From: Fidelibacterota bacterium | Lineage (GTDB): Bacteria; Fidelibacterota; UBA8477; JABMPR01 | Reading direction: 5' to 3' | Assembly (NCBI GenBank): GCA_016784025.1 | Contig: JADHVL010000019.1 | Location: 1-64,000 of the forward strand | DNA: 64,000 nucleotides | In this document: in pieces, positions 23,868-37,099 of the stretch | Layout of the letters: each line of letters begins with the position of its first letter | Position numbering within the stretch: the stretch's first letter is position 1 | Program-made: the position numbers and the translations under genes | The notes under the pieces: generated by a model | The model's database searches: none | What the model was told of the DNA's origin: nothing | The model's input: the letters and a program-made list of their open reading frames with translations, nothing else

Positions 23868-24109
23868 AATGATAAGATTAGCCCCTGATTCCTTATACTT
23901 TTAATAGGTTTGGCTAGTTTTTGTTAAACTTGGAATAAGGGTCTGCTCATACAGAAACGTGTGTGGGATACACCTGGGAGGCACTAACACCTCCAGGTTT
24001 ACTTAAAATTTCCTCGTGGCTTACAATTTGCCGATTATTGTTTAACTGGAGAACCAGGATGAAGGTCGAATTAATTTGTCAAACTGAAGGAATTGAGAAC
24101 CTACACAAA

Positions 24110-25018
24110 ATGAGAATTATGAAATCCAGTGTTGTTCTTTTCCTCAGCTTCATATTTATAATGAATTGTGAAGATGGACCCACTGAAACCAACCCTCCCG
24201 ATATCATTGACACAACAGTTACCATAGCAAAAAGTACCAAGCGAGGTCTTTCATTTAACCTCAGGAATGCTGAAGATATGGATACTCTAAAGGGCGGCGT
24301 TTCCTGGTGGTATAATTGGTACTTCAACACCTCAGCCCCTGAGGGATATTATGATGATTACCAGATGGAGTATATTCCCATGCTGTGGGGCGGCAATACA
24401 TCCATTGCAGAAAGAGTCCAGGCCAGGAATTTTATTCTTGACCACCCTGAGATAGAGTATTTGCTGGTCATGAATGAGCCAAATCTGGTAGACCAGGCCA
24501 ATCGAACCCCTGCTCAAGCAGTAGGGGACTGGCTCATCTACGAACAATTCATTTTTGATCTGGCCAATGATGACGGACGTGAATTAAAACTGGTTGGTCC
24601 AGCAATGAACTGGGGAACCCTGGATGGCTATTGGGACCCAGTGGTCTGGTTGGATGCGTTCTATGCAGCCTATCAGAGTTCACAGGGTCGTGAGCCACGC
24701 ATAGATTATTTGGCATTCCACTGGTATGATTATGGTCTTTCCCAGCAGCTGGATAGCTTGCAAAAGTATGGCAAACAAATCTGGATCACTGAATTGGCCA
24801 ACTGGAATGCCAATATTGATTCTTACGCCAAGCAGATCGTCGAGATGACGGAGATGGTGGCTATTTGTGAGAGTCGCGATGATGTTTTTCGATACGCCTG
24901 GTTTATTGGCAGGGGTGGTTTCCCAGACAACCATTACACCTATTTATTTAACCTGGATCCCGGTGACCTTAACAACCTGGGATATACCTATATCAATTTG
25001 CCTTATTCCAGTGAATGA
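24110..25018 (+). CDS. GH128-like secreted glycoside hydrolase (lipoprotein)
   Basis: A 302-residue lipoprotein (FLSFIFIMNC) with a single TIM-barrel domain resembling GH128, a family of beta-1,3-glucanases. The word order matches: KRGLSFN, GVSWWYNW, YIPMLWG, VMNEPN (candidate acid Glu123), FHWYDYG and IWITELANW (candidate nucleophile Glu228). It lies 19 bases before a GH16 laminarinase-type gene on the same strand, which strongly supports a beta-1,3-glucan substrate. The start is uncertain: ATG 24110 gives a clean lipoprotein signal; ATG 24059 has a better Shine-Dalgarno but a 17-residue leader before it. Confidence 0.78.
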   Translation: MRIMKSSVVLFLSFIFIMNCEDGPTETNPPDIIDTTVTIAKSTKRGLSFNLRNAEDMDTLKGGVSWWYNWYFNTSAPEGYYDDYQMEYIPMLWGGNTSIAERVQARNFILDHPEIEYLLVMNEPNLVDQANRTPAQAVGDWLIYEQFIFDLANDDGRELKLVGPAMNWGTLDGYWDPVVWLDAFYAAYQSSQGREPRIDYLAFHWYDYGLSQQLDSLQKYGKQIWITELANWNANIDSYAKQIVEMTEMVAICESRDDVFRYAWFIGRGGFPDNHYTYLFNLDPGDLNNLGYTYINLPYSSE

Positions 25019-25037
25019 GGACTTCTGAGGAGAATCC

Positions 25038-27974
25038 GTGAGAAAACTATTTAATGCTTTTATTGCTGCAATCTTTATCCTTTCAACTGGCCAGGCTCAG
25101 ATCGGGGCCTTGATTTGGGAAGAAAATTTTAACGATCTAGCCAATTGGAATCAAGAATTAGGCAACGGTGCCTGGGGTTGGGGTAATGGAGAGCTAGAAT
25201 ATTACCATCCAGACAACGTGGCAATCTCAGATATCCCAGATGAACCCGGCAATTCTGCACTACACATCACAGCGAGGGCAGAGACCCTGCCAGGATATAC
25301 AGACCAATGGGGTAACCAGCTCAGCTATACTTCGGGTAAGGTCACGACCAAAGCAAAGATATCTGTTCACTACGGTATGATAGAAACCCGAGTGCGTATC
25401 CCGAATCTTGATCTAGGAGGATGGCCTGCAGTCTGGTTATTGGGTACAGCAAATTACGCCTGGCCCTACAATGGTGAGCTGGATATGATGGAAATGGGTG
25501 CCCGTCAGGAGTTCCGCGATCTGCATGATACACATAACGGAGGGAATGGCCTGAATAACTCCACGGTGAATCAATCTGTGGGAGCCAACGCCATCTTCTA
25601 TTCCGATGCGGCTCTGACCCCTGAAAATCCTTCTGGAGCTGCCAGCATTTCCTGGGATCCAGATGATGAATACAATAGACTTTATTACAATTACGACAAT
25701 CCACTTATCGAGCGTTTTGTCGTCTATCGTCTCTACTGGGATGATTCGAGTTTACGCTTTACTGTGACGGATAACGGAACAGAATATGACCTCTACACTG
25801 AACCATTCCCAATAGACAGCGTTTCCAGCGAATTTCAACAACCTTTTTATCTCATTGCAAACTTGGCCATTGGTGGCGCCTTCACCGATGCCTATAACCT
25901 GGGTGATCCAGGTTCAGGAGCCCCTGTGACCATGCCCTTTCCAGCAGATATGTATGTGGATTATATCAAAGTCTACGAGTGGAATGGACAGGGCGGAGTG
26001 AATGTGGGTCCTCCTTATCCAGAGAGCGGCACTTTCGGAGTCTACACTGACACGACCCCAGTAAATGGTGAGCTTGAAGCAGGCGTCACTTCGGAAATCT
26101 ACGTCTGGGAAGGAACGCTTATTGATGGAACCATCCCACCCTATGAAGGCGAGAATGGTATCTCATGGCAAACTACTGGTAGTGGATGGTTTGGTGCGGG
26201 AATCTTACCTGTTCAACCTCTAAACCTGACCAATTTCAATGAAGGAACCTTGAAATTCATGATCAAGATCCCAGCTGGTGTCACTTTCAAAATTGGGGTC
26301 ATCGACAATTGGGGTAACCAGAACTATGTGACCTTCCCTGCCAACCAAACCACGTACGGGCTGGTACGTGATGGCGAATGGGGACAGGCCTCCATTCCTG
26401 TCACTGATCTCCGTGGCGTGGCTATCGATATGCGCATGCTCAGCTATGCCTTTGTTATTCTGGAGGAAAGTGGTGCAGCCTGTGAGTTTGGTCTGGATGA
26501 TATCTATTATGAAGGTGGTGGTGTCTCCAATCCCCCTATCGCCAATGCTGGTGTAGATCAGGTAGTACTTGATGACGATAATAATGGTGAAGCCACGGTT
26601 ACGCTGAATGGTTCCCTCAGCACGGACCGATTTGGAAACATTGACCTCTACCAGTGGATGCACAGTGATACTCTTCTAGCTACTGGTGAATTGGCTGAAG
26701 TCACAATGCAATTAGGTGAGTATCCCATCACACTAATTGTCACTGATGATGAAGGCAACACCGACTCTGATGATGTTGTGATCTCAGTGATCGACAATTA
26801 CCTCCCCAGTGCCTACGCAGGAGAAGATCAGATGGTCATCGATATGGATGGGAATGGTTTGGAATCGATTGCTCTAGATGGGTCTGCCAGCACAGACAGT
26901 GATGGCGATATAGTTAGCTACAGCTGGTCTGAGGCAGGAACTGAATTAGCCACTGGAGAGCAGATTACTCTGGAGCTTGATATCGGTGTTCACCTCATCA
27001 CCTTAACTGTGACTGATAATGACGGTGGTCAAGGAACCGATGCCCTCACCGTCCGGGTGAATCGCAATCTTCCCACCTCTGCGCCAGCCATTTATTACAC
27101 AGGCACACCCATTGTCATCGATGACCAGGTCGATGCAACCTGGGTCAATACGCCTGAAATGGGTATCAACAATGTTACTGTAGGTGCCCGTACTGCAGAC
27201 TTCCAGGCACAGTGGAAAGCCATGTACGATGCTGAAAATCTCTATCTCCTGGTGGAGGTCAATGATGAGGTCTTGATTAATGATTCCGGCAATGGCTGGT
27301 ACATGGATGATGTGGTAGAAGTCTTTATTGATGCTGATAACAGTAGTGGCGGTGTCTATGATGGCATCAATGATTTTCAATTCGGCTTTCGTTGGGATGA
27401 TGATGTCATCAAAATCGGGAATAACTCAGTGAACAATACGACGGGCATCGAATTTGTCCAGTATGCAACCCCAGTCGGCTACAACCTGGAAGCTAGCTTC
27501 CTCTGGAGTTTGCTGGGAGTATCACCTGATAATATTTCCATGATTGGTTTCGATGTGGCAGTAGACGATGATGATAATGGCGGAGACCGCGAGTGTGCTG
27601 TTGCATCCATCTTTACTGCAGACAATGCCTGGCATAATCCCAGTGTGTTTGGGAATGTCCCTCTCGTGGTTACTGTTGGAGTTGATGGGAATACTGAGCA
27701 CGCCCAACCCAGGAAGTTCGCACTTCATCAGAACTTCCCCAATCCATTCAACCCGAGTACGTCTATTCGATATGGCCTACCTCGCTCAAGTGAGATTCAT
27801 ATCCTTATCTACAACACCCTTGGCCAAGAGGTTACCAGCTTATTTCAAGGTGTGCAGTCTGCAGGTAATCATGAACTCACCTTCAATGCTCAAGGACTGA
27901 GCTCAGGTATTTACTTTGTTGTATTAAGATCTGGTAGTGAACAGCTCAAGCAAAAGATACTTCTTATAAAATAA
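25038..27974 (+). CDS. GH16 laminarinase-type beta-glucanase with PKD, CBM9-like and sorting domains
   Basis: A 978-residue secreted enzyme starting at GTG with GAGGAG upstream. The signal peptide ends near GQA. The GH16 domain (about 25-320) has the catalytic motif GELDMMEMG with nucleophile Glu147, Asp149 and acid/base Glu152, of the ExDxxE laminarinase kind, plus WPAVWLLG and MYVDYIKVYEW. Next come a carbohydrate-binding-like domain (about 335-490), two PKD-like Ig domains (about 495-670; GSxSTDxxG...Y.W), a CBM9-like domain (about 675-870; YDAENLYLLVEVND, DDVVEVFID) and a Por/T9SS-type sorting domain ending QKILLIK. It would cut beta-1,3-glucan such as laminarin outside the cell. It is followed by a terminator. 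Confidence 0.9.
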   Translation: MRKLFNAFIAAIFILSTGQAQIGALIWEENFNDLANWNQELGNGAWGWGNGELEYYHPDNVAISDIPDEPGNSALHITARAETLPGYTDQWGNQLSYTSGKVTTKAKISVHYGMIETRVRIPNLDLGGWPAVWLLGTANYAWPYNGELDMMEMGARQEFRDLHDTHNGGNGLNNSTVNQSVGANAIFYSDAALTPENPSGAASISWDPDDEYNRLYYNYDNPLIERFVVYRLYWDDSSLRFTVTDNGTEYDLYTEPFPIDSVSSEFQQPFYLIANLAIGGAFTDAYNLGDPGSGAPVTMPFPADMYVDYIKVYEWNGQGGVNVGPPYPESGTFGVYTDTTPVNGELEAGVTSEIYVWEGTLIDGTIPPYEGENGISWQTTGSGWFGAGILPVQPLNLTNFNEGTLKFMIKIPAGVTFKIGVIDNWGNQNYVTFPANQTTYGLVRDGEWGQASIPVTDLRGVAIDMRMLSYAFVILEESGAACEFGLDDIYYEGGGVSNPPIANAGVDQVVLDDDNNGEATVTLNGSLSTDRFGNIDLYQWMHSDTLLATGELAEVTMQLGEYPITLIVTDDEGNTDSDDVVISVIDNYLPSAYAGEDQMVIDMDGNGLESIALDGSASTDSDGDIVSYSWSEAGTELATGEQITLELDIGVHLITLTVTDNDGGQGTDALTVRVNRNLPTSAPAIYYTGTPIVIDDQVDATWVNTPEMGINNVTVGARTADFQAQWKAMYDAENLYLLVEVNDEVLINDSGNGWYMDDVVEVFIDADNSSGGVYDGINDFQFGFRWDDDVIKIGNNSVNNTTGIEFVQYATPVGYNLEASFLWSLLGVSPDNISMIGFDVAVDDDDNGGDRECAVASIFTADNAWHNPSVFGNVPLVVTVGVDGNTEHAQPRKFALHQNFPNPFNPSTSIRYGLPRSSEIHILIYNTLGQEVTSLFQGVQSAGNHELTFNAQGLSSGIYFVVLRSGSEQLKQKILLIK

Positions 27975-27993: not shown

Positions 27994-28027
27994 AAAAAAG
28001 CCCCTCTTCCACGAGGGGCTTTTTTTA
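27994..28027 (+). terminator. Intrinsic terminator after the GH16 gene
   Basis: GCCCCTC (28000-28006) pairs with GAGGGGC (28013-28019), preceded by a run of A and followed by eight T. It is strong in both directions, so it also separates the convergent Spy-like gene. Confidence 0.92.
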
Positions 28028-28062: not shown

Positions 28063-28650
28063 TTATCTGTCGCGTGGTGGGGGTGCACCGGAACCAGGTC
28101 CCTGCCCACGTGGTGGTGGCCTTCTATCCGGGGCTTGACCTTCAGGGTGCGGAGGTCTTCCTTCTGCTCCCATTCCTTGAGGTGGTGGTGGTTGTGAACC
28201 CCCACGCATCAATTCACCAGCTAGGTCTTTCAAGCGAGCCTGCTGTTCAGGAGTACAGAGCGCATTAAGTTCGACGAAGTGATCGTACAATGCCCGATCC
28301 ATATCGACATGGATATTTGAAATATTCAGCACCAGCTCATTTGCTCGTGTTGAATCTGCCATGGGTTTGAAAGACTCAGAGATAAGAAGTTCCAGCGAAT
28401 CAGCCAGAGATGACAGGAGTGGATGCGCGTTGTCAAAATGTTGTTTTCTGATATTGTGCATGGCTTCTGTCTGACTGTCTGTCAAACCCAGTTCTGATTT
28501 TAAAAAGCCTTCCAATCCCCTGGGATGATCAGGGTCATTCTGCCCTGGTCTTTTATTGATAACCATGCTGGAAATAAGTGCCAGATTCAAAATTACCAAT
28601 AAAGCGATGGTAATCTGCATCATTCTTTTTTGTTTAATAATATCCAGCAT
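28063..28650 (-). CDS. Spy/CpxP-like (LTxxQ) envelope protein in an ECF sigma operon
   Basis: A 195-residue protein with an N-terminal membrane helix (about 10-30, MMQITIALLVILNLALISS) and an alpha-helical periplasmic domain of the Spy/heavy-metal-resistance kind. It has LGLTDSQTEAMHNIRKQH, and CTPEQQARL in place of a second LTxxQ. The last 45 residues are low-complexity Pro/Gly/Arg (PPPPQGMG, PPPRGQGPGSGAPPPR). This kind of protein senses or buffers envelope stress, and in many FCB genomes sits beside an ECF sigma factor. ATG 28650 follows the anti-sigma stop by four bases and has GGGGAG seven bases upstream. It is the third gene of that operon. Confidence 0.82.
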   Translation of the reverse strand: MLDIIKQKRMMQITIALLVILNLALISSMVINKRPGQNDPDHPRGLEGFLKSELGLTDSQTEAMHNIRKQHFDNAHPLLSSLADSLELLISESFKPMADSTRANELVLNISNIHVDMDRALYDHFVELNALCTPEQQARLKDLAGELMRGGSQPPPPQGMGAEGRPPHPEGQAPDRRPPPRGQGPGSGAPPPRDR

Positions 28651-28654
28651 TTTG

Positions 28655-29002
28655 TCACTCCCCTTCTTCACTTAACAGATAGGTATCAGCATAATTGAGA
28701 CCGTACTGTGATGACAAATTTTCAATGTAATCCGATCGACCTGAGGCGCTTGTCTCATTGGGAACGGCGATCCAGACCATCATTATCAGATTCAATGTCA
28801 CGAGACCAACCAACATCCCCGGTTTCACTACGCGGCTCCACCATGCTTCAATGGCTGGTGTATCAGGGTTGAGCTCATGCTCAATGCGATTATTGAGACG
28901 ATCATAAAACCAGGGGTCCATTTCTGGTGGTTCATCCTGGCGAAATGCATCCAGTGTCAGTTTTACTTGGCCCTGGATCTCATCATGGTTGCTTTTTTTC
29001 AT
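28655..29002 (-). CDS. Predicted anti-sigma factor
   Basis: A 115-residue protein with a cytoplasmic N-terminal half, one membrane helix (about 66-84, PGMLVGLVTLNLIMMVWIA) and a short periplasmic tail. Size, single span and position directly after an ECF sigma gene fit an anti-sigma factor, though no zinc HxxxCxxC motif is present. I therefore infer function from context. The downstream Spy-like gene starts four bases after its stop, a common trio (sigma, anti-sigma, Spy-like sensor). Confidence 0.7.
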   Translation of the reverse strand: MKKSNHDEIQGQVKLTLDAFRQDEPPEMDPWFYDRLNNRIEHELNPDTPAIEAWWSRVVKPGMLVGLVTLNLIMMVWIAVPNETSASGRSDYIENLSSQYGLNYADTYLLSEEGE

Positions 29003-29037
29003 AGCTTCCTCAATTCTTCAACTCTTTATTCATTCCC

Positions 29038-29631
29038 TCAAGGTGTAAAATGTCCCGTGAGGTGTTTTTTTAAATTCTTTCGTCCCCGATGCAGCAATCC
29101 CTCTATGGCAGACACAGAGGTGTTCATTATGTCAGCAATCTCCTGATTGCTATAATCCTCATAATTGCTCAAGGTGATAGCCACCCGCTGATTCTCCGGC
29201 AATTTTGCTACGGCCCAGGCTAAAATCCGTTTTCGCTCTGCATCCATGAGATCAGTCTCTGGAGTAGAATCAGCTGCGACATCCACTTCACCTTCAGCGC
29301 TTCCGATTGACAGCAGGGCTCTTACGGAACCCAACCTGCGTTTACGATTCTGCTTCCGAATCAGATCCAGACTCTTGGTCACAGCAATGCGATATATCCA
29401 GGTGGAGAGTTGAGCTTCCCCCCTGAAATCATCCAAAGATTTATACACCTGGATGAACACTTCCTGGGAAACATCCTGGGCATCTTCACGGGATCTCAAA
29501 AAACGATAGCAAGTACTGTATACCCGCTCCTGATGTTCAAGTACGACCCTGCGAAAATCTGTTTTTGTAGAAGTTGTTTGCTTCGTATTCACTCCAGAAT
29601 TCTGGTTTTCCTCAATATAGGGTCGTTCCAT
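29038..29631 (-). CDS. ECF-type RNA polymerase sigma factor
   Basis: A 197-residue sigma-70 factor of the extracytoplasmic type. Region 2 reads YSTCYRFLRSREDAQDVSQEVF and LDDFRGEAQLSTWIYRIAVTKSLDLIRK (core and -10 binding). Region 4 reads LPENQRVAITLSNYEDYSNQEIADIMNTSVSAIEGLLHRGRKNL, split here by a normal linker. It is followed by the predicted anti-sigma and Spy-like genes. Its regulon may include the divergent genes at 29803 and after. A weak ribosome site precedes the ATG; the N-terminal 25 residues are polar and not conserved. Confidence 0.9.
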   Translation of the reverse strand: MERPYIEENQNSGVNTKQTTSTKTDFRRVVLEHQERVYSTCYRFLRSREDAQDVSQEVFIQVYKSLDDFRGEAQLSTWIYRIAVTKSLDLIRKQNRKRRLGSVRALLSIGSAEGEVDVAADSTPETDLMDAERKRILAWAVAKLPENQRVAITLSNYEDYSNQEIADIMNTSVSAIEGLLHRGRKNLKKHLTGHFTP

Positions 29632-29802
29632 TCATGGGACACAACATCTTTCCGCATTCACAGCCGTGGTGCAACTGTTCTGACGTCATTTATTTCAAAA
29701 CCTTTTGCTCAAAAATAAAATAAATAAAAGTGCAAGGTTTGGAATCAGTAGACGTCTCAAACAACAGAAAGAGACACGCAAAAAACGCGAAAGGAGCATA
29801 TC

Positions 29803-30189
29803 ATGAATACTAAAATCTTAAAGAGAACCATACTTCTAATGAGTTTGTTAATGATGACCAACATCGGCCTGGCACAACGCAACCAGGAGCCACCCCCACT
29901 CCCCAACAAAACCCAGATCGCTGAGATGGTTGAGGAATTGGACCTGGCTCTGGAATTAACTACTGGCCAAAGGACTCAGATCTCTGAGCTCTATTTTGCC
30001 CACTTCGAGAAGGCTCAGAAGGTCATGGACACAGGCAAAACATCAGGTCGGGATAGCCACCAAGCCATGGAAGCATTGAGGAAACATTTCCAGGCAGAGG
30101 TCAAGGTGCTTCTCAATAAGGACCAAGTCAAAAAATTCGAATCACTTCAAAAGAACCATCGTCCACCTCAACAACAAAACCGACGATAA
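29803..30189 (+). CDS. Small secreted Spy-like protein
   Basis: A 128-residue secreted protein with a signal peptide (cleavage near GLAQ) and a helical domain LELTTGQRTQISELYFAHFEK, LNKDQVKKFESL, similar to the LTxxQ proteins but smaller, and a Pro/Gln/Arg-rich end (HRPPQQQNRR). A strong AAAGGAG lies before the ATG. It is divergent from the ECF sigma operon, and 29 bases ahead of the DUF1566 lipoprotein gene, so it probably heads the operon running to 34494 and may be controlled by that sigma factor. Confidence 0.75.
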   Translation: MNTKILKRTILLMSLLMMTNIGLAQRNQEPPPLPNKTQIAEMVEELDLALELTTGQRTQISELYFAHFEKAQKVMDTGKTSGRDSHQAMEALRKHFQAEVKVLLNKDQVKKFESLQKNHRPPQQQNRR

Positions 30190-30218
30190 TTAGCCCCATA
30201 TTAGGAAAGAAGATCATC

Positions 30219-31460
30219 ATGAAAAAGATACTCAGCTTAGCCTTAACTCTGATTTTATTGATAGCGTGTGAAGACTCAACATCGGTGGAAGATACAACCA
30301 TCGAGAATTTGCCCAATATCAGTGGCTACCCTGTCGTAAGCACAAATCAAGGGATCTATTACGACAATCAGAACGAAATATCAACACCGGTGAGCGGTGA
30401 GGCTTTCTATGGCCAGGACGCCCAGTATTCACATAACGAGGCCGTATATGTAGACAATGGCGATGGCACCGTTACAGACATGGTAACCGGCCTGATGTGG
30501 CAGCAGAGTCCAGATACCGATGGCGATGGTGACATAGATGCTGCCGACAAAGTGACCTATGATGAAGCCGTGGCCGGTGCCAGCGAACTAGACCTGGGTG
30601 GTTATACTGACTGGCGTCTGCCCACTATCAAGGAACAGTACTCTCTGATTCAGTTTAGCGGTATTGATCCAAGTGATTATGAGGACACATCCACAGACGG
30701 TCTGATTCCTTTCATTGATACTGACTATTTCGATTTTGCCTATGGTGATACCGATGCCGGAGAACGCATTATCGACTCCCAGTACGCCAGCTCAAACCTT
30801 TATGTAGACGGTGAACTGCTCTTCGGTGTAAACTTCGCTGATGGACGGATTAAAGGTTATGGTCTTCAAAATCCCTTTGGACCTGGTGACAAGACCTTCT
30901 TCGTCACCTATGTGCGCGGAAATGACACATATGGGATCAATGACTTCGTCGACAATGGCGATGGCACCATCACCGATGCGGCTACAGGTCTCATGTGGAT
31001 GCAAGACGACAGTCAAGAAGGTATGGTCTGGGAAGATGCTCTAAGCTATGCCGAAAACCTGGAAGCTGCAGACTACGGTGACTGGCGTCTACCTGATACC
31101 AAGGAACTACAGAGTATTCTCGACTATACCAGATCACCTGGAACCACGGGCTCAGCTGCCATTGATCCCCTCTTTTCGGCCACTGAGATAACCAATGAAG
31201 CTGGTGAAGTGGACTATGGATTCTACTGGAGCGGTACGACCCACAGCAACTGGTCAAATATGGCAGGCAGTGCTGGTGCCTATGTAAGCTTTGGCCGTGC
31301 CATGGGATACATGGATAATTGGGTAGATGTCCACGGAGCAGGAGCCCAGCGCAGCGATCCCAAAACAGGAGATCCTGCTGATTACCCTACTGGTAATGGT
31401 CCCCAGGGCGATGCCATTCGCATCTTGAATTACGTCCGTGCAGTGAGAACCATACAATAA
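30219..31460 (+). CDS. Lipoprotein with two DUF1566 domains
   Basis: A 413-residue lipoprotein (LTLILLIAC) with two DUF1566 domains. Each has the order DNGDGTVTD, TGLMWQQ or TGLMWMQ, and DWRLPTIKE or DWRLPDTKE, followed by the FSG/DYTRSP region, at about 85-260 and 245-410. An acidic loop DTDGDGDIDAADK (about 101-113) looks like a calcium-binding loop. DUF1566 domains are related to the C-type-lectin-like or FGE-like fold and their function is not settled. It shares about half its residues with the protein at 32926-34494, with the CotH-like gene in between; the two flank and may be clients of that kinase (inference). Confidence 0.82.
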   Translation: MKKILSLALTLILLIACEDSTSVEDTTIENLPNISGYPVVSTNQGIYYDNQNEISTPVSGEAFYGQDAQYSHNEAVYVDNGDGTVTDMVTGLMWQQSPDTDGDGDIDAADKVTYDEAVAGASELDLGGYTDWRLPTIKEQYSLIQFSGIDPSDYEDTSTDGLIPFIDTDYFDFAYGDTDAGERIIDSQYASSNLYVDGELLFGVNFADGRIKGYGLQNPFGPGDKTFFVTYVRGNDTYGINDFVDNGDGTITDAATGLMWMQDDSQEGMVWEDALSYAENLEAADYGDWRLPDTKELQSILDYTRSPGTTGSAAIDPLFSATEITNEAGEVDYGFYWSGTTHSNWSNMAGSAGAYVSFGRAMGYMDNWVDVHGAGAQRSDPKTGDPADYPTGNGPQGDAIRILNYVRAVRTIQ

Positions 31461-31487
31461 TTACTGGTAATACCGGAGGGAATTGGT

Positions 31488-32900
31488 ATGAAATACATCA
31501 CTTTTTTCAGTATGCTTTTCTTCATAAGCATCATCTCAAGCTGTGATGATGCAGTCACTGATTCATCATTGACCATCGATGATCTGGAATTCGAGCCCAC
31601 TGACTGGACCTCTGAATCCCATAGTAAAAGTGCAGATCCAAATTTTGATGAGGTCTTTGACAATTCTGCAGTCAAAAGACTAGATATCGTAATCTCTGAA
31701 AACAACTGGCAAGTCATGCTGGATGATATGACAAACCTGTATGGGGCATTTGGTGCTAGTGCCGGAGGCCCCCCAGGAGGTCCTCCAGGTGGTGGTCCCG
31801 GAGGAGTGCTTGTGGAAACTGATAATCCAATTTTTATACCTGCCGATGTCTTCTATAATGATATCCAGTGGTACAAAGTCGGCGTACGCTTTAAAGGAAA
31901 TTCAAGTTTACAAAGTAGCTGGCAGTCGGGCATATTGAAGCTTTCACTCAAACTGGATTTCGATGAATTCGAGGATGATTACCCTCAGATTAACAATCAG
32001 CGTTTCTACGGATTTAAGAAATTAAGTCTCAAGAACAACTTCGAGGATCAATCCTTCCTCAGAGAGAAAGTAACAGCTGAAATATTCAGGGATGCTGGGT
32101 TGGCGGTTTCTCACACAGCTTTCTATGATTTGTATATCGACACTGGTGATGGTCCTGAATATTTTGGTCTCTATACCCTGGTGGAAGAAGTGGATGATAC
32201 GGTGATCGAGACCCAGTTTGCCAGCGTTGATGGCAATTTGTATAAACCAGAATATACTGGTGCCAGTTTTGAGGAAGGTACATTCAGTGAGTCTGATTTC
32301 ACCAAGAAGACCAACGAGGATGACAATGATTGGTCAGATATTCAAGCGCTTTTTGAAGCACTCCACGCCGATACCCGATCCAACAATCCTGAAGCCTGGC
32401 GGACTGATCTTGACAGCATATTCGATACAGATGTGTTCCTGAAATATCTAGCTGTCAATACTGTGGTCCAAAATTGGGATACCTATGGACGTATGACCCA
32501 TAATTATTACCTCTATAACAATCCAGATAATGGAAAACTGACCTGGATTCCCTGGGACAATAATGAAGCATTACAGGATGGTAAAATGGGTGGCTCCCTG
32601 AATCTTGATTTTTCAGATCTCTTAAGTGGTAATTGGCCTTTAATTGAATACCTGTATGCAGATGATGTCTATCGGAATAAGTATGATACATACGTAAATG
32701 AGACCAGATCTACTGTTTTTGCCCCTGGGAACATTCAGGTGAAATATGCTGAATATGCAGCATTAGTAGAACCATCTGCTGTCGCGGAAATAGCGGGCCT
32801 CACCTTTCTTTACAGTAGTTCAAATTTTCAGAGTGCGATTTCTCAATTGAATGCACATGCAGATAATCGTGCCAGCGCTGTAGATAACTACTTAAACTAA
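31488..32900 (+). CDS. CotH-like secreted protein kinase (lipoprotein)
   Basis: A 470-residue lipoprotein (FFISIISSC) with a CotH domain. Visible parts: VGVRFKGNSSLQSS, KLSLKLDFDEF, KKLSLKNNF-DQSFLREKVTAEIF, YFGLYTLVEEVDD, then NWDTYGRMTHNYYLY and LTWIPWDNNEAL, whose Asp residues match the positions expected of the CotH kinase active site. Bacillus CotH phosphorylates spore-coat proteins on serine; here the protein would act outside the cytoplasm, anchored by lipid. A Gly/Pro loop (GGPPGGPPGGGPGG, about 92-105) is inserted after the first domain part. It lies between two related DUF1566 genes. RBS GGAGGG precedes the ATG. Confidence 0.85.
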   Translation: MKYITFFSMLFFISIISSCDDAVTDSSLTIDDLEFEPTDWTSESHSKSADPNFDEVFDNSAVKRLDIVISENNWQVMLDDMTNLYGAFGASAGGPPGGPPGGGPGGVLVETDNPIFIPADVFYNDIQWYKVGVRFKGNSSLQSSWQSGILKLSLKLDFDEFEDDYPQINNQRFYGFKKLSLKNNFEDQSFLREKVTAEIFRDAGLAVSHTAFYDLYIDTGDGPEYFGLYTLVEEVDDTVIETQFASVDGNLYKPEYTGASFEEGTFSESDFTKKTNEDDNDWSDIQALFEALHADTRSNNPEAWRTDLDSIFDTDVFLKYLAVNTVVQNWDTYGRMTHNYYLYNNPDNGKLTWIPWDNNEALQDGKMGGSLNLDFSDLLSGNWPLIEYLYADDVYRNKYDTYVNETRSTVFAPGNIQVKYAEYAALVEPSAVAEIAGLTFLYSSSNFQSAISQLNAHADNRASAVDNYLN

Positions 32901-32925
32901 ACGAATATTTTTTGAGGAAGACAAA

Positions 32926-34494
32926 ATGAAAAAGTTATTCAGAGAGTTCCAACCGGTGGTCCTTAGCCTCCTGCTCCTATTGATGGGCAGCCAAAGCATA
33001 CTCGCTCAGTCATATAAAATCGTGGATACAGGTCAGGCAACCTTCTACAACAACCAAAGTGCAATCAGTGCACCTCAGCCAGGTGAGTCCTTTTATGGCC
33101 AGGATGCCTCCATCAGCGGCCACCAACCCGATTATACTGACAATGGAGATGGCACTGTCACTGATAATGTGACGGGTCTCATGTGGCAACAGAGTACCGA
33201 TCTCAATGGTGACGGGATCACCAATGTGACTGATAAGCGAAGTCAAGCTGAGGCTGAGGCTGGAGCAGATACCTTCAGGCTGGCCGGTTATGATGATTGG
33301 CGCCTACCCTCGATCAAGGAGGCCTACTCCCTATTTATGTTCAGCGGTGAAGATCCCAGTGGTTATGAAGGGACGGATACTGAGGGACTGATCCCTTTTG
33401 TGGATACCAATTATTTTGATGTGGCCTATGGAGACACAGATGCCGGTGAACGCATCATCGATGGTCAGTATGCCAGTACTACTCTGTATGTGGGTACAAC
33501 TATGGGCGGTGATGCCACCATGTTTGGAGTCAATTTTGTGGATGGTCGTATCAAGGGCTATCCCACAGGACCCATGCCTGGTCAAACAGAGGACAAACAG
33601 TTCTATGTTCTCTATGTTCGGGGCAATGAATTGTATGGTCAGAATGAATTTGCGGACAATGGCAACAACACGGTTAGTGATGTAGCCACCGGTCTCATGT
33701 GGATGCAAGATGACAGTCAAATCGGTATGGACTGGGAGGCGGCTCTGACCTGGGCTCAGGCGAAAAATGCCGAGAGTTATCTTGGTTACAACGATTGGCG
33801 ATTGCCCAATGCCAAGGAACTCCACAGCATTTTGGATTACACTCGTTCACCTCAGACAACTAACTCAGCATCCATAGATCCTATTTTTTCCTGTACAACC
33901 ATAACAGATGAGGGTGGGGATCCAAATTATGCCAGTTACTGGTCCAGTTCCACCCACGCCAATATGAACAACGGTGCCTGGGGTGCCTATGTTTGCTTTG
34001 GTGAAGCTCTGGGTTTCATGGCAGATCCATTCCCACCGTTCAATGTTTCCTTACTGGATGTTCATGGTGCTGGTGCCCAGCGCAGTGACCCCAAGGCCGG
34101 ATCAGCTGAAGATTATCCCCAGGGTCATGGCCCTCAGGGTGATGTGATCCGCATAGATAATTTTGTAAGATTGGTTCGTGATATCCAGAGTTCAACTGGC
34201 CTGAATGATGATTTAGATAATGAGTCTCCCAAATCATTTTCTTTGGAGCAGAATTATCCCAATCCATTCAATCCCTCAACCACGCTCGAGTATAGTCTTT
34301 CCGAGCCAGGATACATTCGGATCGCTATTTATAACACCCTTGGACAGGAAGTGACACAACTTTACCAGGGGCTTCAGATCCCTGGTAGGCATCAAATTCT
34401 ATTTAATGCCGAAGGATTTAGTTCAGGAATATATCTTGTGGTTCTGGAGAGGGAGTCGACTCAACTCAAGCAAAAAATTCTGCTACTTAAATAA
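32926..34494 (+). CDS. Secreted DUF1566 protein with Por/T9SS-type sorting domain
   Basis: A 522-residue protein: signal peptide (cleavage after ILA), two DUF1566 domains (about 65-240 and 235-425; TGLMWQQ, DWRLPSIKE, TGLMWMQ, DWRLPNAKE), a loop STDLNGDGITNVTDK like a calcium site, and a sorting domain from about 440 to 522 ending QKILLLK. It is a paralogue of the lipoprotein at 30219 but exported by a different anchor: the first by lipidation, this one by the sorting domain. The preceding CotH-like gene ends 25 bases upstream, with GAGGAAG before this ATG. Confidence 0.85.
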   Translation: MKKLFREFQPVVLSLLLLLMGSQSILAQSYKIVDTGQATFYNNQSAISAPQPGESFYGQDASISGHQPDYTDNGDGTVTDNVTGLMWQQSTDLNGDGITNVTDKRSQAEAEAGADTFRLAGYDDWRLPSIKEAYSLFMFSGEDPSGYEGTDTEGLIPFVDTNYFDVAYGDTDAGERIIDGQYASTTLYVGTTMGGDATMFGVNFVDGRIKGYPTGPMPGQTEDKQFYVLYVRGNELYGQNEFADNGNNTVSDVATGLMWMQDDSQIGMDWEAALTWAQAKNAESYLGYNDWRLPNAKELHSILDYTRSPQTTNSASIDPIFSCTTITDEGGDPNYASYWSSSTHANMNNGAWGAYVCFGEALGFMADPFPPFNVSLLDVHGAGAQRSDPKAGSAEDYPQGHGPQGDVIRIDNFVRLVRDIQSSTGLNDDLDNESPKSFSLEQNYPNPFNPSTTLEYSLSEPGYIRIAIYNTLGQEVTQLYQGLQIPGRHQILFNAEGFSSGIYLVVLERESTQLKQKILLLK

Positions 34495-34518: not shown

Positions 34519-34546
34519 GCCCCTTCACCCTGAAGGGGTCTTCTTA
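34519..34546 (+). terminator. Intrinsic terminator after the DUF1566 operon
   Basis: CCCCTTCA (34520-34527) pairs with TGAAGGGG (34531-34538) around CCC, then TCTTCTT. It closes the operon that starts at 29803. Confidence 0.8.
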
Positions 34547-35535: not shown

Positions 35536-35638
35536 ACCAATAATTTTCCATTTTCCTGTAATTTGAAACTTGATTTATTTTCTGAATTAAGTAACTAGAA
35601 CCCTGGGCTTGATCACAACAAAAAGGGATTATAAAGCG

Positions 35639-37099
35639 ATGAAACGGATAAGTTTTTTGCTAGTTGCTGGTATGGTTTTTTGGGGGTGTTCACCCATCGA
35701 TGAAGATTCAGCCGGGGTTCAGAAATTTTCAACCAAAAACAAGATTGTTTCAGTATATACCACTGCTGAAAATACAGATTTAAGACTCACTCCCACAGGG
35801 ACAAGCTCATTTGAACCTGCAGAACAGGCCAAGGAAACAGAAGTTTCCATTTTTGTTAATCCTGAAAAATCCTTCCAGACCTTCTGGGGTATTGGTGGAG
35901 CGCTTACAGATGCTTCAGCAGAGGTGTTTGCAAAATTGCCTGTTGAACAACAGGAAGCATTTTTGAAATCCTATTATGATGTGAACGAAGGTATCGGCTA
36001 CACTCTTGCACGAGTGCCTATCCACAGTTGTGATTTCAGCAGCGCCAGTTTCACCTATATTTCTGATACGGACCAGGAGCTAAGGACTTTTAGCATTGAT
36101 CATGATCAGGAATTTCGCATCCCTTTCATCAAAAAAGCCATTCAAGCTGCTGGTGGTGAGCTACCCCTTTATGCCAGCCCCTGGAGTCCCCCACCCCATA
36201 TGAAAAGCAATGGTGAAATGCTCCATGGCGGCAGTTTGCTCCCTGAGTATTATGACTCCTGGGCACTCTATTATACCAAGTTTATCAAAGCTTATGAAGC
36301 TGAAGGCATGCCCATATGGGGTATTACCCTTCAAAATGAACCTATGGCTACCCAAAGGTGGGAATCTTGTATTTACACAGCTGAACAAGAGCGAGACTTC
36401 CTTAAAAATCATCTTGGACCCACAATGGTTCGTGAAGGATTACATGATAAAAAAATTATTGTTTGGGATCATAATCGCGATCTCATCGCCAACCGTGCCC
36501 ATACCATCTTTGGCGACCCTGAAGCATCTAAATACGCCTGGGGAATTGGTTTCCATTGGTATGAGACCTGGACTGGCAGCGACCCCAACTATAATAATCT
36601 GAATAATGTGACTGAGTCCTATCCCGATAAAAAGCTGGTCTTTACCGAGGGTTGTGCAGAACGTTTTATTGATGGTCGCTATGAATATTGGCCCAATGCC
36701 GAACGTTATGGTAACTCAATGATTAATGATTTTAATCATGGCACGGTTGGTTGGACTGACTGGAATATCTTATTGGATGAAACGGGTGGTCCAAATCATG
36801 TGGGAAATCTTTGTTTTGCTCCGGTTCATGCTGACACCAAAACAGGTGAATTAATCTATACACCGACCTATTATTATATCGGACATTTCTCGAAATTTAT
36901 TCGACCTGGTGCCAAACGCATCAGCACCTCGGCCAGCAGAACCCATCTGGAGAGTACTTCATTCCTGAATGAAGATGGAAAAATGGTCACAGTGGTCATG
37001 AACCATACTGATGATCCCATTGACTATAAACTCTATGTAGGTACCAATGCAGTCAGGGAAAGTATCCCAGCTCACGCCATGCAAACTCTGCTCTATTGA
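35639..37099 (+). CDS. GH30-family lipoprotein glycoside hydrolase
   Basis: A 486-residue lipoprotein (VAGMVFWGC) of glycoside hydrolase family 30: GIGGALTDASAE near the start of the barrel, ASPWSPPPHMKSNG, LQNEPMA with acid/base Glu234, and VFTEGCAE with nucleophile Glu337, then the beta-side domain (about 400-486). GH30 includes beta-1,6-glucanases and glucosylceramidases; with GH128 and GH16 enzymes in the same neighbourhood, cutting the beta-1,6 branches of laminarin is the best guess. ATG 35639 has AAAAGGG ten bases upstream. It stands alone. Confidence 0.88.
   Translation: MKRISFLLVAGMVFWGCSPIDEDSAGVQKFSTKNKIVSVYTTAENTDLRLTPTGTSSFEPAEQAKETEVSIFVNPEKSFQTFWGIGGALTDASAEVFAKLPVEQQEAFLKSYYDVNEGIGYTLARVPIHSCDFSSASFTYISDTDQELRTFSIDHDQEFRIPFIKKAIQAAGGELPLYASPWSPPPHMKSNGEMLHGGSLLPEYYDSWALYYTKFIKAYEAEGMPIWGITLQNEPMATQRWESCIYTAEQERDFLKNHLGPTMVREGLHDKKIIVWDHNRDLIANRAHTIFGDPEASKYAWGIGFHWYETWTGSDPNYNNLNNVTESYPDKKLVFTEGCAERFIDGRYEYWPNAERYGNSMINDFNHGTVGWTDWNILLDETGGPNHVGNLCFAPVHADTKTGELIYTPTYYYIGHFSKFIRPGAKRISTSASRTHLESTSFLNEDGKMVTVVMNHTDDPIDYKLYVGTNAVRESIPAHAMQTLLY

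Follow-up and report, generated by a model that had tools for sequence, protein, structure and literature searches.

Why would a marine bacterium set a gene for a CotH-family kinase between two genes for DUF1566 (Lcl_C) proteins, and place the whole row back to back with an operon for an extracytoplasmic function (ECF) sigma factor? The arrangement occupies positions 28063 to 34494 of the stretch analysed here, 64,000 nucleotides of contig JADHVL010000019.1 from a Fidelibacterota bacterium (assembly GCA_016784025.1), called the window throughout. The genome to which it belongs (G000) measures 3.5 Mb, is 86% complete and has metagenome bins of Candidatus Neomarinimicrobiota as its nearest named relatives. 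A preliminary description, made from the sequence alone, had seen one undescribed module under envelope-stress control, with the DUF1566 proteins as possible substrates of the kinase. We consider it likely that the locus works as a self-contained envelope-stress cassette which activates itself and belongs to the sigma/anti-sigma/Spy-like-sensor kind, with CotH in its regulon, and that its switch has been kept while its cargo was exchanged.

Two divergent operons share a promoter element

Seven open reading frames (ORFs) make up two divergent operons, in the order and orientation first described. The ORFs and the Pfam, NCBIfam and profile comparisons bear out that layout, in which sigma, anti-sigma-like and Spy1 genes on the minus strand diverge from genes on the plus strand for a second Spy-like protein (SpyS), a DUF1566 lipoprotein (LclA), CotH and a DUF1566 protein with a sorting tag (LclB). 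Lipoboxes, signals, transmembrane (TM) stretches and collagen repeats were, here and below, assigned by eye. The elements of the locus are the following.

28063..28671, minus: Spy1, membrane-anchored Spy/CpxP/CnrX-like sensor with a Pro/Gly/Arg-rich C-terminus (Metal_resist PF13801, LTXXQ PF07813)
28655..29002, minus: anti-sigma-like protein, 115 aa, one TM-like stretch (position and profile-profile match)
29038..29631, minus: ECF sigma factor (Sigma70_r2, r4_2, TIGR02937)
29682..29704, minus: predicted ECF promoter of the sigma operon, AAGGTTT-N12-CGTC (one of four genome copies)
29732..29757, plus: predicted ECF promoter of the SpyS-LclA-CotH-LclB operon, GCAAGGTTT-N12-CGTCT (sole genome copy of the longer pattern)
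29803..30189, plus: SpyS, small secreted Spy-like protein (hhalign to the Spy1 family)
30219..31460, plus: LclA, lipoprotein with two Lcl_C (DUF1566) stretches (PF07603; lipobox by eye)
31488..32900, plus: CotH kinase-family lipoprotein, D331 and D357 conserved (PF08757; lipobox by eye)
32926..34494, plus: LclB, secreted, two Lcl_C stretches and a type IX secretion system (T9SS) type A sorting tail (PF07603, PF18962, TIGR04183)

What ties the two operons together? Each strand of the 171-bp gap between them carries one copy of the element AAGGTTT-N12-CGTC (minus, 29682-29704; plus, 29734-29756). Genome-wide there are four copies, against three of the reversed pattern, and two of the four stand back to back in this gap; a longer form, GCAAG[GT]TTT-N12-C[AG]TCT, occurs once. 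When six divergent loci of the genus are compared, five show the plus-side element without a change and the sixth, in G008, departs from it at two bases. All six keep a minus-side element at the corresponding position, with three to four mismatches to the plus consensus, and the 12-base spacers differ. An element conserved around diverged spacers has the look expected of a sigma-dependent promoter, and we infer that both copies are active promoters read by this sigma factor. A scan for sigma-70-type promoters was uninformative (19 found versus a mean of 16.1 in shuffles).

Could the genes be chance neighbours? The cargo does differ between genomes, as that explanation would allow, but the arrangement recurs in another family and another phylum. 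We regard chance adjacency as very improbable and reject it because the promoter element, itself conserved, is shared by both operons. The twin promoter, its retention in relatives and the presence of the sigma gene in the same gene run as CotH in all five CotH genomes of the order give strong support, at the DNA level, to the earlier view of one module under envelope-stress control; that the signal is an envelope stress is suggested by the family of the sensor.

Distribution of the switch

How far does this switch extend? A scan with the CotH alignment across phyla yielded 304 loci, and the analysis was made on the best 80 of the 304, which belong to Bacteroidota, Pseudomonadota, Campylobacterota, Krumholzibacteriota, Neomarinimicrobiota and single others. 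Neighbours were sought within 6 kb around CotH, some loci being truncated by contig ends, and were labelled by single-linkage clustering; the YHYH, EF-hand, MORN and SCO1 clusters are named from one scanned member each, and the histidine-kinase-like and LytTR-like labels were assigned by eye. A sigma gene lies this close to CotH in 24 of the 80 loci, all 24 of which also have a Spy sensor. The anti-sigma is found in 22, a count that excludes three from the window's relatives, which clustered separately.

The 1.53 Mb of these loci were searched for the longer motif, with the reversed pattern as control. There are 47 sites in 23 loci, all on the CotH strand, and one reversed match. The sites precede genes for the sigma factor (9), anti-sigma (19), YHYH (13), EF-hand (2) or SpyS (2), CotH directly (1), or a sulfatase-like gene beside YHYH (1). 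For the 19 anti-sigma sites the nearest ORF call is the anti-sigma in 17 and Spy in two (L074, L111), and for the two SpyS sites it is CotH (L049) and Lcl (L050); in these four loci the call of the nearer gene starts upstream of the site. The 19 sites, one in each of 19 loci, occupy the short space that separates the sigma gene from the anti-sigma gene, for example in Flavobacteriaceae (L061:8610, L097:8812, L127:8556), a position where the window has none. A sigma factor reading such a site would also raise its own inhibitor, that is, a built-in negative feedback.

Whole genomes point to a near-exclusive placement of the element at the cassette. Among 18 genomes, chosen mostly because their loci already carried the motif, 30 of 34 sites are at the cassette, one precedes a separate sigma operon in G030 and three lie elsewhere (reversed pattern, one); four of the 18 have no site. 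G030, a Cytophagales bin, contains two sites only, one before a sigma-anti-sigma-Spy operon and the other 30 nt before cotH on another contig. This placement, taken with the motif data from the 80 loci, argues for a single, dedicated ECF regulon that activates itself and has CotH among its members. The sigma triad of G030 (L164:5478-10193) heads an operon with a DUF1800-DUF1501 pair, another pair apparently under the same switch.

Two samples were drawn evenly, and their reversed-pattern totals are sums of tabulated columns. Among 149 genomes of one family, 51 sites were found versus 25 reversed: 16 lie within 5 kb of CotH, in seven of the 15 CotH genomes, 11 are in six sigma-and-Spy loci without CotH, and 24 are elsewhere. 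From this placement, the switch appears largely confined to the cassette, with CotH as one cargo among several. One locus (L163, in G182) has sigma and Spy genes with no anti-sigma frame seen. In 120 genomes of the window's own phylum, of which nine have CotH, six of 11 sites are at the module, one of them (in G007) without CotH. Six off-module sites that were inspected (L165, L167, L168, L187-L189) have no common theme; as such sites are also about as many as those of the reversed pattern, we treat them as background.

Several observations weigh against a regulon so simply drawn. Motif sites in the 80-locus scan are confined to Neomarinimicrobiota and Bacteroidota. The longer motif was partly derived from sigma upstream regions and from the window's relatives, so that 11 of the 47 sites are not independent of its definition and 36 are. 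The 11 own-phylum sites fall below the reversed control of 15, and the evidence from that phylum is therefore site placement only. G008 has CotH in the run with near matches and no exact site, and three Lutibacter genomes have no site at all. Eight of the 15 CotH genomes among the 149 have none within 5 kb, and CotH thus often appears to be under other control. The sigma gene, in turn, lives without window-type CotH in G007, in G020 (as a sigma triad) and in six of the 149 genomes. Finally, 56 of the 80 CotH loci have no such sigma gene within 6 kb, 28 have none of the named neighbour clusters, and a histidine-kinase-like cluster is present in 18.

Exchange of cargo

Which genes does the switch command? 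The order was compared in 23 genomes, where single absences are weak evidence because many are incomplete bins and one locus, in G010, stops at a contig edge. Window-type CotH occurs in five, the sigma factor in seven and an Lcl protein of LclB or LclA type in nine. By sequence, the output in the window is secreted or lipid-anchored, and it changes between close relatives: SpyS-LclA-CotH-LclB in the window genome becomes SpyS-CotH-LclB, without LclA, in G005 and G006, SpyS-LclA-CotH with no LclB next to CotH in G004, and SpyS-ferric reductase-FAD protein-VTC-DUF4956-DUF2490-CotH in G008. In G007, the sigma gene and SpyS-LclB stand without a CotH of this clade, amid flanking genes other than those of the window. 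Of the gene order as first described, the place of the sigma gene in the CotH run was kept in every CotH genome of the order, but the Lcl cargo varies and strict co-occurrence of CotH with DUF1566 proteins did not hold.

G008 offers two further observations. Next after SpyS (L019:2843-5264; judged by gene size and order, L054 and L116 as well) stand a membrane protein resembling ferric reductases and an FAD flavoprotein, possibly an extracytoplasmic electron-transfer pair in the same regulon. On contig C16 (L047), a SpyS paralogue comes after a partial LclA-like gene at the contig end, and C22 has another partial Lcl match; part of the cassette may be duplicated here, or the assembly may be broken.

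Farther away, G247, from another family of the same phylum, has on one strand genes for sigma, anti-sigma, Spy, VTC, DUF4956, DUF2490, CotH, SpyS and two Lcl proteins, one a lipoprotein and the other with a T9SS-like tail (tail by eye); its only motif site lies between CotH and SpyS in this full cassette. Lutibacter citreus has two Lcl genes, SpyS, VTC, DUF4956, DUF2490 and CotH in one stretch. In G220, G238 and G265, CotH stands without the cassette in the stretches inspected. The common Flavobacteriaceae order, also on one strand, is sigma, anti-sigma, Spy, EF-hand, CotH, YHYH, MORN, SCO1. Across the 80 loci, the neighbours of CotH are YHYH (31), EF-hand (29), MORN and SCO1 (27 each), VTC (8), DUF4956, DUF2490 and Lcl_C (7 each) and SpyS (6). 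On the CotH tree of 87 rows, in which long-branched rows make parts unsure, the label 'sigma and Spy nearby' requires at least 10 changes, and the link has therefore been repeatedly gained or lost.

CotH and the DUF1566 proteins

Is the window's CotH built as a kinase? The protein matches PF08757 at 240.4 bits (Pfam cut-off 23.8) and aligns with Bacillus cereus CotH 5JD9 (E 3.3e-11), its D331 (QNWD) and D357 (IPWD) falling onto QNFD and IPWD of that structure, which are themselves 23 residues apart. In B. subtilis CotH, a change of D228 or D251 inactivates the enzyme (PMC7821199; this and the other papers cited are drawn on in excerpt). From the 5JD9 alignment and the 23-residue spacing, D331 and D357 would correspond to this pair. 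Both are Asp in 86 of 86 aligned sequences, in an alignment that includes the window and five distant CotH-domain proteins and omits one 242-aa fragment; the key Asp residues are thus kept, as first described. Because of this invariance and the 5JD9 alignment, the kinase domain looks intact. The lipobox Cys19 and Asp21 are likewise invariant across five aligned genus members, window included. A Gly/Pro-rich insert, GGPPGGPPGGGPGG, at CotH residues 93-106 (window 31764-31805) is present in three of four aligned relatives and missing from G008, and may be compared with the Pro/Arg-rich tail of Spy1. The 28 loci without named neighbours hold close CotH relatives (about 60-67% identity) as orphan copies, e.g., in Shewanella, Alteromonas and Arenibacter.

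LclA and LclB match PF07603 at 132.6 and 140.6 bits (cut-off 34.9), with two Lcl_C stretches each. LclB ends in a sorting tail (PF18962, Por_Secre_tail, 34.7 bits; TIGR04183, 32.9 bits versus a cut-off of 23), which we take to be a T9SS tail, as we name such tails in this phylum. No collagen-like repeat was seen by eye in either protein, and a search of solved structures (PDB) with the Lcl sequences gave no match.

Does the operon then exist so that CotH can phosphorylate the two DUF1566 proteins? LclA and LclB flank cotH, the set of CotH, SpyS and two Lcl genes appears again in G247 and Lutibacter citreus, a distant CotH-domain gene adjoins LclB in G011, and the catalytic Asp pair is invariant. 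We nevertheless find this explanation unlikely. Lcl lies near CotH in the seven loci of 80 only, no Ser-rich repeat like those of known CotH substrates was seen by eye in the Lcl proteins, and LclB occurs without this CotH in G003, G007, G010 and G011, four of the seven LclB genomes (G004 and G008, with the LclA type, make up the nine with Lcl proteins). A strict kinase-substrate pairing as a rule is not borne out by co-occurrence, and the idea of the two DUF1566 proteins as a fixed substrate set is not supported in that form. That they are substrates at all is possible but not favoured: they may be, and co-occurrence does not single them out. The CotH-domain gene of G011 (L045:5220-9376; 769 aa, 26% identity to window CotH) stands in a genome that lacks the sigma cassette.

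Was LclB at this site before the switch arrived? In G003, a CBM9/PKD gene, LclB, a VanZ-like gene and GH30 follow one another in the same order as around the window cassette, which GH30 and CBM9 genes flank; G003 has no cassette, its CBM9 gene and LclB are direct neighbours, and the motif is absent upstream of LclB. G003, G010 and G011 carry LclB with neither window-type sigma nor window-type CotH. On the Lcl tree (18 rows), LclB from genomes without window-type CotH falls within the LclB clade; LclA groups with G247, Lutibacter and Campylobacterales genes (83/80 support, weak). LclB could accordingly belong to a polysaccharide locus of beta-glucan type as its resident glycan-binding protein, the sigma/CotH cassette having been inserted ahead of it (or lost there in other genomes), and we give this nearly, though not quite, an even chance. 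It is countered by G007, where LclB follows sigma and SpyS amid other flanking genes, and by G247, whose cassette also has an Lcl protein with a T9SS-like tail.

Glycan-active genes surround the cassette: Glyco_hydro_cc, a CBM9/PKD protein with a T9SS tail, and GH30 (window 23963-27974, 35609-37099). Two terminator-like hairpins, from a pattern scan only, complete the map.

28003..28018, plus: terminator-like hairpin between the CBM9/PKD gene and spy1
34519..34539, plus: terminator-like hairpin 3' of the plus-strand operon

Sensor and signal

To what might the switch respond? The sigma factor (29038-29631, minus) matches Sigma70_r2 (64.3 bits) and r4_2 (54.4 bits) in Pfam and TIGR02937 in NCBIfam. 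The protein encoded at 28655-29002 (minus) has no Pfam match; it matches a Flavobacteriaceae protein in the same position (profile-profile E 2.3e-16) and is called anti-sigma-like by position and homology only. Spy1 matches Metal_resist (29.4 bits, cut-off 29.2) and LTXXQ (28.5 bits, cut-off 24.3). Residues F56, L61, Q67, H78 and Q143 are conserved in 26 of 26 homologues, H78 being the sole invariant His; a full metal site was not seen. SpyS, with no confident Pfam or NCBIfam match, aligns with the Spy1 family (hhalign probability 92%, E 5.6e-7) and weakly with Spy structures (best E 0.043). CnrX, too, belongs to the Metal_resist sensors. The locus holds a CnrYXH-like trio of sigma factor, membrane anti-sigma (by position and homology) and Metal_resist sensor.

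The regulon might then be mainly one of metal or peroxide defence, CnrYXH-like, with CotH and Lcl as accessories. Besides the sensor family and its weak profile matches to Spy (E 0.0023) and NccX (E 0.43), cargo elsewhere fits: SCO1 in 27 of 80 loci (PF02630 in one scanned member of the cluster), a di-haem peroxidase (PF03150) in two, and the ferric-reductase and FAD proteins of G008. On the other side, a Pfam scan found no metal efflux genes, and so no efflux pump, between 28063 and 34494, and the sensor, in which just one His is invariant, does not reveal a complete metal site. We hold metal or peroxide defence to be possible rather than probable.

Could CotH instead join VTC and DUF4956 proteins in serving an exopolysaccharide or matrix, along the lines suggested for Pel clusters, the window copy being a reduced version? 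VTC is present in eight and DUF4956 in seven of the 80 loci, the order VTC-DUF4956-DUF2490-CotH is found in G008 and G247, and CotH, polyphosphate polymerase and DUF4956 genes lie beside Gram-positive Pel loci (PMC7112168). The window cassette has neither VTC nor DUF4956, and the one VTC gene found in its genome is outside the cassette, on contig C14. We find a role of this kind doubtful.

A model for the cassette

In the stress-cassette reading that we prefer, the Spy1 sensor and the one-TM anti-sigma would hold the sigma factor at the membrane and, as their families suggest and as CnrYX does for CnrH (PMC9045368), sense an envelope signal. That signal, for which misfolded protein, metal and redox stress are candidates, would release the sigma factor. 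The freed sigma factor would fire two back-to-back promoters of one sequence, one boosting its own operon and the other giving a periplasmic Spy-like helper (SpyS), a CotH-family lipoprotein kinase and Lcl_C proteins of glycan-binding type. CotH probably acts as a kinase on extracytoplasmic proteins produced along with it, and binding of the cell to glycans is the probable task of the Lcl proteins. Lineages would swap the cargo under a conserved switch: Lcl_C, YHYH, EF-hand, SCO1, MORN, VTC/DUF4956/DUF2490 or ferric-reductase/FAD proteins.

A bolder and rather unlikely version would make this a widespread, undescribed extracytoplasmic signalling island, in which one ECF sigma factor with a Spy-like sensor reads a promoter word shared from Neomarinimicrobiota to Bacteroidota and arms the surface with a secreted CotH kinase and swappable substrates (Lcl_C, YHYH, EF-hand). 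If true, Gram-negative bacteria would here phosphorylate proteins outside the cell in response to stress.

The individual parts are known already; a description of the regulon or of its cargo exchange was not found in the literature searched, in agreement with the first impression of an undescribed module. Nothing was found pairing CotH, kinase and DUF1566, or CotH and YHYH, and among papers on CotH and extracytoplasmic function sigma factors, judged by title and start of abstract, none was about such a module. Why does it matter? CotH-family genes are also present in non-spore-forming bacteria, and the promoter evidence ties part of one CotH clade to a defined stress switch and a short list of co-regulated genes. 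Inducer, regulon and substrates become testable in culturable marine Flavobacteriaceae, and DUF1566, YHYH and DUF4956 proteins gain a regulatory context.

Comparison with known systems

The Legionella Lcl C-terminal domain is C-type-lectin-like and trimeric and binds sulfated glycans, with fucoidan as the tighter ligand (PMC11162425). LclA and LclB share its DUF1566/PF07603 domain and differ in lacking the collagen repeat, in having two copies of the domain and in carrying a lipoprotein anchor or a T9SS tail. YHYH, a cargo elsewhere, is predicted to be a metal-dependent hydrolase (PMC7824862).

The accessory genes of Pel clusters run CotH-polyphosphate polymerase-DUF4956-DUF4832 (PMC7112168), and G008 and G247 likewise have CotH with VTC-type and DUF4956 genes. 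Pel clusters have no ECF cassette described in the text consulted, and the window cassette has neither VTC nor DUF4956. With Bacillus CotH (5JD9; PMC7821199), the window protein shares a kinase-family domain and an Asp pair matching D228/D251. Unlike it, the window CotH is a lipoprotein beside an ECF sigma factor, with no CotB/CotG-type partner in the cassette, whereas the B. subtilis gene is sigmaK-dependent.

Regulation finds its nearest parallels in two other systems. CnrYXH of Cupriavidus metallidurans combines an ECF sigma factor and a membrane-bound CnrYX anti-sigma complex with non-RpoD promoters on its own and its target operon (PMC9045368). The window has the same elements, its sigma promoters being predicted from sequence. 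The targets of CnrYXH are a metal efflux system, whereas here they would be Spy-like, CotH and Lcl_C proteins, and the gene order differs. In Clostridium thermocellum, cseP, encoding a CotH-dockerin protein, is under sigmaI6 (PMC4711584). That system is of the Sigma-I/RsgI type, senses biomass and serves a cellulosomal protein, unlike the window's; it is the one precedent found in the literature searched for the control of a CotH gene by an alternative sigma factor dedicated to it.

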